A stretch of DNA of 64,000 nucleotides from Sphaerobacter sp. Lineage in GTDB: Bacteria; Chloroflexota; Chloroflexia; Thermomicrobiales; Thermomicrobiaceae. Of the stretch, positions 31,538 through 61,114 are shown piece by piece. The notes under the pieces were generated by a model. The model was given only the letters and a program-made list of their open reading frames with translations. It was not told the origin of the DNA and did not search any database. Both the position numbers and the translations under genes were made by a program. The stretch spans positions 1-64,000 of the forward strand of contig JASBVL010000002.1 of NCBI GenBank assembly GCA_029961075.1, in the 5' to 3' direction. The first letter of the stretch is position 1. Every line of letters begins with the position of its first letter.

Positions 31538-31835
31538 GCAGACGTCACACGTCATGCGTCATGGGTATGGCGTACTGCGTATTGCGTGGTGCGTATTGCG
31601 TGGTGCGTCGGCCCTCACCCCCAGCCCCTCTCCCAACGTTGGGAGAGGGGGGACGAGGCTTCACCGTCACCCGCTCTCCCACCAGGGGAGAGGGGAGACA
31701 CCGGAAGACGGAGTACAGACCATACTCCGCATCACGCCAGCCGGAACACGCAACACCAACCACGGACTACGCACTACGACACACGCATCACGCATCACGC
31801 ATCACCCACCACGGCTGACGTGTGACGCCTGACGT
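31538..31835. repeat. composite intergenic repeat, copy B (longest)
   Basis: Left arm with repeated GCGTATTGCGTGGT units, then CCTCACCCCCAGCCCC and a perfect hairpin CCCCTCTCCCAACGTTGGGA...GGGG, a second hairpin-like block CTCTCCCACCAGGGGAGAG, then a right arm with CGGAACACGCAACACC, ACGCATCACGCATCACGCAT triplets and GGCTGACGTGTGACGCCTGA. It ends 16 bases before the moaA stop codon. Confidence 0.65.
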
Positions 31836-58607: not shown

Positions 58608-58636
58608 TTGCAGCCCCCGCGACGCTGTGCTATACT
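58608..58636 (+). promoter_or_regulatory. tRNA-Val promoter
   Basis: TTGCAG (58608-58613), a 17-base spacer and TGC-TATACT (-10 at 58631-58636), with the tRNA beginning about 18 bases after the -10. A well-formed -35/-10 pair for a stable RNA gene. Confidence 0.75.
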
Positions 58637-58653
58637 CCCAGCGTCGCCGAATC

Positions 58654-58727
58654 GGGCGGTTAGCTCAGTCGGTTAGAGCGCCACGTTGACATCGTGGAGG
58701 TCACTAGTTCGAGTCTAGTACCGCCCA
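58654..58727 (+). tRNA. tRNA-Val (anticodon GAC)
   Basis: A full cloverleaf of 74 nt: acceptor GGGCGGT with ACCGCCC, D-arm GCTC/GAGC around AGTCGGTTA, anticodon arm CCACG/CGTGG with loop TTGACAT (anticodon GAC), and T-arm ACTAG/CTAGT with loop TTCGAGT. The discriminator is A. CCA is not encoded (CCC follows). Confidence 0.95.
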
Positions 58728-58736
58728 CCCGATTCC

Positions 58737-58764
58737 CCGTCAGGCCTGCCTGGCGGTCTTTTCG
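58737..58764 (+). terminator. rho-independent terminator of tRNA-Val
   Basis: Stem CCGTCAGGC (58737-58745) with GCCTGGCGG (58748-58756), one T-G mismatch/wobble, 2-base loop, then TCTTTTCG. Confidence 0.75.
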
Positions 58765-58799
58765 TTCTCAACCCGCCGCGTTGAGCGGCAGAAACACAG

Positions 58800-59068
58800 C
58801 GCCAACGGCGTCGAGCGGGACGAGTACCCGGGCGGCGGACGCGCAGAGAGGCGGGGCCACCGGCTGCAAGCCCCACCCGTGACCGGCCCGGCGAAAACCA
58901 CCCGTGAGCTGACCGGCGAACGCCCCACGCGGGGCCAGTAGCCGGCTCCGGTCGCCCCCGTTATCGGGCACCCTGAGCGCCGTCGCGGCTCCGGTCGCGC
59001 GGCGGAAGTAGGGTGGAACCACGTCAGGCCGCGCCTGTCGTCCCTTCGGACGGCGGGCGCTTTTCGTT
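58800..59068 (+). promoter_or_regulatory. T-box leader (riboswitch) of thrS, threonine specifier
   Basis: Stem I is closed by GGCGT/ACGCC (58807-58811 and 58920-58924). GGGACGAGTA (58817-58826) and AGAGAG (58845-58850), followed by a GGGGC/GCCCC distal hairpin, are the usual stem I motifs. Opposite the AGTA lies GAAA then ACC (58897-58899), read as a threonine specifier. The T-box sequence AGGGTGGAACCACG is at 59010-59023. A 13-bp terminator (59031-59043 with 59048-59060) plus TTTTCGTT follows. Uncharged tRNA-Thr would be expected to block the terminator and switch on thrS, 255 bases downstream. Confidence 0.85.
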
Positions 59069-59104
59069 GGGGCCATGGGGTGGGCGCAAGGAGGGCACGC
59101 GATG

Positions 59105-59303
59105 GATGCGACTGGTACCGCGTATTGCGTACTCCGTATTGCGTCGTGCGTGGCGGGACACCCCTCACCCCCGACCCCTCTCCCAATCCTGGGAGAGGGG
59201 GGAGAAACGGAACACGGACTACGGACTCCCAAGTACGCAACACGCAATACGCAGTACGTAGTACGCAGTACGGAGCACGCACTAGGCATGACGGTTGACG
59301 CCG
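59105..59303. repeat. composite intergenic repeat, copy C, inside the thrS leader
   Basis: Left arm GCGTATTGCGTACTCCGTAT, then CCTCACCCCCGACCCC and the core hairpin CCCTCTCCCAATCCTGGGAG..., then a right arm of TACGCAACACGCAATACGCA and TACGTAGTACGCAGTACGGA, and the end module GCATGACGGTTGACGCCG (59286-59303). It lies wholly between the T-box terminator and the thrS ribosome-binding site, so it is part of the thrS mRNA. Confidence 0.7.
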
Positions 59304-59323
59304 CACGGACAGAGGAGCACCCG

Positions 59324-61114
59324 ATGTCGGAGATCGCACAGGAGATGGACATCCAGCTCGAGGTCGAGAGCCAGGAGGAACTGGAGCTGGCGCGCATGCG
59401 GCACTCCGCCGCGCACGTCATGGCGCAGGCCGTCCTGGAGATGTTCCCGGACGCCAAGCTGGCCATCGGCCCGGCCATCGAGAACGGCTTCTACTACGAC
59501 TTCGACCTGCCCCGCTCGCTGACGCCGGACGACCTCGGCAAGATCGAGGAGCGGATGCGGGAGATCAGGGCGGCGGCCTACCCCTTCGTGCGCAAGGAGA
59601 TCGCGCGCGAGGAGGCGCTGGCGATGTTCGCCGACCAGCCCTACAAGCTCGAGATCATCCACGACCTGCCCGAGGACGCCGTGATCTCGACCTACACGCA
59701 CGATGGCTTCACGGACCTGTGCCGCGGCCCGCATGTGGCCGACACGTCGCAGATCGGCCACTTCAAGCTGCTGAACGTGGCCGGCGCCTACTGGCGCGGC
59801 GACGAGAAGCGGCCGATGCTGCAGCGCATCTATGGCACGTCCTGGCGCTCGGAGGAGGAGCTCGCGGCGTATCTCCACCGCCTGGAGGAGGCGCAGCGGC
59901 GCGACCACCGGCGGCTGGGGCGGGAACTGGACCTCTTCTCGGTCAGCGAGGAGATCGGCGCCGGGCTGATCCTATGGCACCCCAAGGGCGCTCTGATCCG
60001 CCACCTGATCGAGCGCTTCGAGACGGACGAGCACCTGAAGCGCGGCTACCAGCTCGTCTACACGCCGCACATCGCCAGCGCCGAGATCTACAAGCGGAGC
60101 GGGCACCTGGAGACGTACCAGGAGAACATGTACGCGCCGATGGATATCGATGGGACGCCCTACTACCTCAAGCCCATGAACTGTCCCGGCCACATCATGA
60201 TCTACAACTCCCACGTCCGCTCCTACCGCGACCTGCCGATCCGGCTGGCCGAGCTGGGCACGGTCTACCGCTACGAGCGGAGCGGCACGCTGCACGGGAT
60301 GCTGCGCGTCCGCGGCTTCACCCAGGACGACGCCCACATCTTCTGCCGGCCGGATCAGCTCCACGGCGAGATCATGGGCGTGCTCGACCTGGCGATGTTC
60401 TTCGCCCGCGTCTTCGGCTACGAGTACAAGGCCTTCCTCGCCACGCGGCCGGAGAAGTCGATCGGGAGCGATGAGAACTGGGAGCGCGCGACGGCGACGC
60501 TGGCGGCGGCGCTGCGCGACATGGGGATGGCGTACGCGATGGACCCCGGCGCCGGCGCGTTCTACGGCCCCAAGATCGATATCAAGTTCCTCGACTCGCT
60601 CGGCCGCGAGTGGACGGGACCGACGATCCAGGTCGACTTCAACCTGCCGGAGCGCTTCGACGTGAGCTACGTCGGGGAGGACGGCGAGCGGCACCGGGCC
60701 GTCATGATCCACCGCACGGTCCTCGGGTCGATGGAGCGCTTCGTCGGCGGGCTGATCGAGCACTTCGCGGGCGCGTTCCCGGTCTGGCTGGCGCCGGTCC
60801 AGGCCGAGATCATCCCGATCGCCGACCGGCACCTCCCCTACGCGCAGCAGGTGGCGGCACGGCTGGTGGAGGCCGGCCTGCGGGCTGAGGTTGACGACAG
60901 CAGCGACCGCATGCAGGCCAAGATCCGGCGTGCCCAGCTCCAGCGCGTGCCGTACATGCTGGTGGTCGGCGACAAGGAGGCCGAGGCGGAGGCCGTCGCG
61001 GTCCGGCTGCGCACCAACGAGAACCTCGGCCCGATGCCGCTGGCCGACTTCATTGCCCTGGCTCGGGAGATGAACGACACCAAGTCGCTCGCCCTGACCC
61101 GCGACGCCAGCTAG
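59324..61114 (+). CDS. thrS: threonyl-tRNA synthetase (no TGS domain)
   Basis: 596 residues, class II synthetase. The chain opens directly before the editing domain (RHSAAHVMAQAV and CRGPHV, with HxxxH and Cys), without the roughly 60-residue N-terminal TGS domain of the E. coli enzyme. The catalytic domain has LKPMNCPGHIMIY (zinc Cys), motif 2 YRYERSGTLHGMLRVRGFTQDDAHIF and motif 3 VLGSMERF; the anticodon domain follows from about 495. The ATG at 59324 follows AGAGGAG. Upstream in-frame starts would translate the repeat in the leader. It is controlled by the T-box at 58800-59068. Confidence 0.95.
   Translation: MSEIAQEMDIQLEVESQEELELARMRHSAAHVMAQAVLEMFPDAKLAIGPAIENGFYYDFDLPRSLTPDDLGKIEERMREIRAAAYPFVRKEIAREEALAMFADQPYKLEIIHDLPEDAVISTYTHDGFTDLCRGPHVADTSQIGHFKLLNVAGAYWRGDEKRPMLQRIYGTSWRSEEELAAYLHRLEEAQRRDHRRLGRELDLFSVSEEIGAGLILWHPKGALIRHLIERFETDEHLKRGYQLVYTPHIASAEIYKRSGHLETYQENMYAPMDIDGTPYYLKPMNCPGHIMIYNSHVRSYRDLPIRLAELGTVYRYERSGTLHGMLRVRGFTQDDAHIFCRPDQLHGEIMGVLDLAMFFARVFGYEYKAFLATRPEKSIGSDENWERATATLAAALRDMGMAYAMDPGAGAFYGPKIDIKFLDSLGREWTGPTIQVDFNLPERFDVSYVGEDGERHRAVMIHRTVLGSMERFVGGLIEHFAGAFPVWLAPVQAEIIPIADRHLPYAQQVAARLVEAGLRAEVDDSSDRMQAKIRRAQLQRVPYMLVVGDKEAEAEAVAVRLRTNENLGPMPLADFIALAREMNDTKSLALTRDAS

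Follow-up and report, generated by a model that had tools for sequence, protein, structure and literature searches.

A candidate threonine leader peptide behind the thrS T-box of Sphaerobacter and its relatives, interrupted by a genome-wide repeat

In the bacterial order of Sphaerobacter, the T-box terminator ahead of thrS is often followed by a short open reading frame (ORF), usually with its own predicted ribosome site and rich in the threonine codons that tRNA-Thr(GGU) reads. Together with related observations at other genes, this suggests that Thr, Leu, Lys and possibly Trp T-boxes of the order often have behind them a leader peptide with cognate codons, and that the thrS leader in the 64,000-nt stretch of Sphaerobacter sp. 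DNA analysed here (the window) is such a unit, opened by a repeat. We hold this wider reading with about even confidence.

In the window, tRNA-Val(GAC), a T-box, a terminator, an AAGGAGG/ATG pair, a composite repeat, an AGAGGAG and the thrS ATG follow one another in that order (Table 1). The T-box aligns with RF00230 over model positions 1–219 of 219 at 52.9 bits in an 801-base search, and its AGTA, AGAGA, specifier and GGGTGGAACC motifs are all present. This score is below the Rfam gathering score of 93, and the T-box was missed at the gathering threshold and recovered by a lax search; other T-boxes in these GC-rich genomes likewise score mostly 50–110 bits. The genome's tRNA-Thr(GGU) ends in ...GGGC-U-CCA, and its discriminator U fits the T-box UGGA. 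The terminator, with a stem at 59031–59060 followed by TTTT and a last base at 59064, overlaps the antiterminator portion of the RF00230 match and lies before the gene. These features show thrS to be under a predicted transcriptional T-box for tRNA-Thr(GGU). They also bear out a first-pass annotation of the locus, which had placed a complete T-box and terminator with its end near 59068 and the thrS ribosome site 250 bases further on (AGAGGAG begins about 247 nt away, at 59311), with a composite repeat at 59105–59303 filling most of the gap, as its arms, core and second copy within the window confirm.

Table 1. Features of the thrS leader and related elements, in window positions
Feature	Position	Strand	Basis or remark
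Second repeat copy in the window	31550..31653	.	sequence similarity
Promoter-like TTGCAG-17-TATACT before tRNA-Val	58608..58636	+	by eye; in 3/3 same-genus genomes
tRNA-Val(GAC)	58654..58727	+	RF00005, 71.1 bits; ARAGORN
T-box leader for thrS	58802..59048	+	RF00230, E 1.3e-10, full length
Specifier codon ACC (Thr)	58897..58899	+	RF00230 alignment; reader is tRNA-Thr(GGU), detected in the genome
T-box UGGA	59014..59017	+	complementary to UCCA of tRNA-Thr(GGU)
Intrinsic terminator of the T-box	59031..59064	+	13-pair stem, loop of 4, TTTT
AAGGAGG + ATG, upstream ORF start	59088..59104	+	no stop before thrS; start aligned in G001, G002
Composite palindromic repeat	59105..59303	.	arms, core, genome copies, fold
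Repeat core (CCCCTCACCCCCGACCCCTCTCCC-loop-GGGAGAGGGG)	59161..59200	.	pattern in 39/61 genomes of the order
AGAGGAG + ATG, conserved thrS start	59311..59326	+	N-terminus aligns with relatives
thrS, threonine--tRNA ligase without TGS domain, 596 aa	59324..61114	+	TIGR00418, 731 bits

Within 58608–58802, the sole promoter-like site seen by eye lies 5′ of tRNA-Val and is kept in the genus; the consensus promoter scan did not list it because of its weak −35 match. A terminator-like hairpin (58737–58756) follows the tRNA gene, and the T-box comes next, an arrangement from which we infer that tRNA-Val and thrS may share transcription. Between the terminator and thrS the consensus scan found no promoter, which neither shows nor excludes an independent one for thrS; any transcript that passes the terminator must include the repeat, as the annotation had stated.

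The annotation had overlooked two elements: the AAGGAGG/ATG pair with its open frame, and a conserved short ORF in the corresponding gap of relatives. This ORF begins about 25–50 nt past the terminator in eight genera of three families (in g9 it comes later, behind an inserted repeat) and encodes MTEDDTENRVA in S. thermophilus, MCGCRTSQTTGN in G005, MTTNTTSAVVQIGRRRNTNG in G006, MTDETDTR in G028 and MTDEEETGGATKMLIPIS in G032. When the upstream ORF (uORF) was defined as the first ATG or GTG with a Shine-Dalgarno sequence (SD) within about 85 nt and at least 5 codons, 12 of the 14 thrS leaders with a gap had an SD-preceded first ORF, against 3.8 expected from dinucleotide shuffles; the genera are related, and such counts are not fully independent. 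Threonine is the commonest residue, at 25 of 124 when each genus is represented by one hand-chosen peptide (p 8.5e-8 in a binomial test against 6%), and remains in excess when the residue after the start is left out (p 1.9e-5). Under the automatic rule, threonine makes up 21.8% of first uORFs in thrS leaders of eight genera, compared with 5.2% for the remaining T-box leaders (p 1.5e-5), and in an independent shuffle test it ranked first of the 20 residues, with a modest p of 0.011. The choice of codon is also skewed: ACC and ACT, which are read by the same tRNA-Thr(GGU) that the T-box senses, account for 20 of the 25 Thr codons, compared with 32% in a gene sample from the same genomes (p 1.2e-6) and with a non-coding expectation of about half (p ~0.002, by our own arithmetic). 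The ORF is not indispensable, since its start codon is lost in G021, and family f3 and genera g2, g3 and g6 have no short ORF, thrS mostly beginning soon after the terminator.

Cognate codons also recur behind other T-boxes. The survey took in 98 T-box leaders whose gap was 60 nt or longer, drawn from about 29 genomes. A blind permutation of the amino-acid labels over 38 gene-by-genus groups gave 0 of 20,000 outcomes as extreme (p about 5e-5). In several genera a Leu-codon ORF follows the T-box terminator of leuA (loci L212, 300–535, L178, L193, L296, L276 and L229). That of S. thermophilus (L212), MVIGQMAARNLDLLGLFLLSLLRPLGGARGALGGCP, is followed by a second terminator whose 5′ arm, GCCTCCCAG, appears by eye able to pair with the ORF's terminal CTGGGAGGC. 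This predicted layout is that of a classical attenuator, and the output at leuA is likely to be a second transcription decision. At lysX, Lys-rich uORFs follow the Lys T-box (L224, L312, L302, L285, L318, L288, L216 and L280), several of them overlapping the lysX start; the leader of G009 carries the Lys-codon ORF SRKQKPVLKRLKACKPGG. A first, stricter test for cognate codons gave no signal for ileS, valS, pheS, leuS or trpE, and with leaders of the first four lacking it the design is not universal. At two trpE loci, L230 (G028) and L333 (G021), the uORF behind the Trp T-box ends in TVAEWSRASWRR, which holds two Trp codons; the trpE leader of G028 contains MTVAEWSRASWRR.

The leuS leaders showed two features of a different kind. 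In 12 genomes from seven genera, the T-box harbours a tRNA-Ala(GGC) gene, placed after the Leu specifier (GAA-CTC) and before the antiterminator (L189, 1557–1632, minus strand, G000:C91:3486-3558; L213, L241, L222, L271, L270, L232, L334, L307, L300, L319 and L237). In most of these genomes a short helix resembling Stem III (GATAGGCG/CGCCTATC in g1, GGTAGAC/GTCTACC in G005) brackets the gene, which would make the tRNA the loop of that stem; the g3 and g6 genomes have the same tRNA-Ala ahead of an ordinary T-box. We know of no precedent for a tRNA gene inside a T-box, and none came to light in a literature query on this arrangement. A 42-residue ORF (MAIVPRRRSRSYLAGHRGCPGRYGTVGGAPALAAGPSPVSAA) lies between the T-box and leuS in S. 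thermophilus and G001 (L213, L241); it is largely conserved and not Leu-rich.

We propose, at a level of belief midway between doubt and acceptance, that the thrS leader has two tiers, a T-box and behind it a Thr leader peptide that would act as a second, translation-level sensor, and that in the window's genus the repeat landed in this ORF. Uncharged tRNA-Thr would cause the T-box to let transcription through, and only the read-through mRNA would carry the ORF, on which ribosomes would stall or slow at ACC and ACT codons, giving a second reading of the same tRNA ahead of thrS translation. The step that sets thrS output might be relief of masking, protection of the mRNA or control of reinitiation. 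The ORF is supported by the sequence statistics given above, and leader-peptide action is its proposed role. A terminator scan of the window found no second terminator after the thrS ORF, and folding models of thrS leaders with a stalled ribosome gave no shared SD-masking switch, the SD being clearly freed only in G006. The ORF might instead be translated without sensing threonine, its translation serving to load ribosomes, feed reinitiation and keep the read-through mRNA translated and protected. The SD and start position are conserved and the peptides differ widely in sequence from genus to genus, which suits this alternative, as does the uORF stop of G030, which overlaps the thrS start (ATGA); leader genes have moreover been proposed to raise downstream translation generally (PMC4833913). 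It leaves unexplained, however, the Thr excess and the ACC/ACT bias among the Thr codons, as well as the Leu ORFs at leuA and the Lys ORFs at lysX, and the stop-to-start distance at thrS, which ranges from −4 to about 190 nt, also speaks against it. We regard it as unlikely, though the most credible of the alternatives weighed here.

In the window itself, the two-tier leader would be in an altered state. The repeat breaks into the short ORF a few codons past its start (MDATG..), leaving no stop, whereas in S. thermophilus and G001 it supplies the end of the ORF (..RVA*). Because the repeat cut into the ORF and left no stop, the peptide's role in relatives, whatever its nature, is predicted to be altered in the window's genome. 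The frame of the ATG at 59102, which is preceded by a consensus ribosome site at 59088–59094, is open across the repeat into thrS (ORF 59075–61114). On the two-tier reading, the repeat would have spread in the genome and entered the ORF in an ancestor of the genus, and ribosomes starting at 59102 would now run into thrS to give a 670-aa form, with the conserved start at 59324 retained beside it. Another possibility is that 59102 is the working thrS start here and that the repeat encodes a 74-residue N-terminal extension. The AAGGAGG is well spaced from the ATG and the frame leads into thrS, and in f3, g2 and g6 thrS begins about as soon after the terminator, but the extension would be translated repeat that no relative has, stops occur in that stretch in G001 and G002, and the start at 59324 retains an SD and matches the N-termini of relatives in alignment. 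We therefore think it improbable that 59102 has taken over as the start. Gene callers may nonetheless prolong thrS across the non-coding repeat in this genome, and such annotations call for caution.

The repeat consists of arms made of degenerate seven-base tandem units, variable in length, on either side of a fixed core. Its inverted arms (59115–59151 and 59235–59271) are 84% complementary and the window copy folds with z = −7.6 against shuffles, in line with the annotation's claim that a long hairpin can form in the mRNA. In the window's genome the family gives 82 alignments in dozens of distinct places, far above chance, many of them being the two arms of one place. In a count over 61 genomes of the order, on both strands and with one mismatch allowed, the core pattern occurs 68 times in the window's genome and 102 times in S. 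thermophilus, and its reversed control not at all. When the flanks of 29 copies were judged by a simple ORF method, 25 were intergenic (14 co-directional, 9 convergent and 2 divergent) and 4, the thrS-leader copy among them, lay within an ORF. The thrS-leader repeat is thus an ordinary genome-wide repeat.

All three genomes of the genus (the window's, G001 and G002, the last of these Sphaerobacter thermophilus) have it at one and the same site, and we found no empty insertion site within the genus. Outside the genus the gap between terminator and thrS holds a different repeat in G032 (GGCGCAATTCATTGCGCC), another in G009 (GACCGACGCCCCTGTCGGTCC), still others in G023 and the core alone in G037 of family f3, and G005, G015, G006 and G028 have none. 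With other repeats or none in relatives, the gap appears to tolerate insertions and to require no particular repeat. The annotation had suggested that the repeat's hairpin might add a second layer of control over thrS, by RNase cleavage, termination or folding. That the repeat folds far better than shuffles and keeps its position, each in 3 of 3 same-genus genomes, is compatible with this idea; yet any palindrome would fold so, no T run follows the repeat, and in the same-genus comparison the adjoining T-box is much better conserved than the repeat. It is also a weak candidate for such a layer because it is genome-wide, lies mostly between genes in every orientation, and gives way to other repeats or none outside the genus. 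Control by the repeat thus seems to us a slim prospect, and the leader most likely tolerates the repeat as a passenger; a second layer as such remains plausible, through the Thr-codon-rich ORF.

The elements of this leader can each be set beside known systems. The repeat resembles REP- and MITE-like intergenic repeats in its many copies, palindromy and mostly intergenic location in every orientation, and differs in its degenerate 7-mer tandem arms of variable length around a fixed core. With the RF00230 T-box of thrS the window leader shares Stem I with AGTA and AGAGA, a cognate specifier, the T-box sequence and the terminator, but it scores low owing to its high GC, and an additional ORF and a repeat separate it from the gene. 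In these genomes the leuA leaders share a Leu-codon ORF before leuA with leader-peptide attenuators and with the LEU element of Actinobacteria, which has no T-box in front (PMC1262725), whereas here the ORF lies downstream of a Leu T-box. A search by ThrRS, covering a few T-box thrS leaders of distant phyla and no close relatives, found no comparable ORF. Literature on T-boxes with leader peptides beyond rtpA, on Thermomicrobia T-boxes and on Chloroflexi thrS T-boxes, mainly open-access papers and outside the main T-box reviews, contained no report of the design. To our knowledge, the only two-tier tRNA sensor of T-box and leader peptide is the Bacillus subtilis rtpA leader, which Chen and Yanofsky reportedly described in 2003 and 2004 as a T-box with a Trp-codon leader peptide. 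In the leader of rtpA (yczA, anti-TRAP), as here, a short ORF holding codons for the T-box amino acid lies between the T-box terminator and the gene. There, three Trp codons are consecutive and the stop is close to the ribosome site of the gene; here, the Thr codons are spread, the distances are variable and our analysis revealed no translation switch. If our reading is correct, double sensing of one uncharged tRNA, first through RNA-tRNA binding and next through stalled ribosomes, would be no curiosity of B. subtilis: the design would recur in a distant phylum, where S. thermophilus offers a cultured type strain for testing it.
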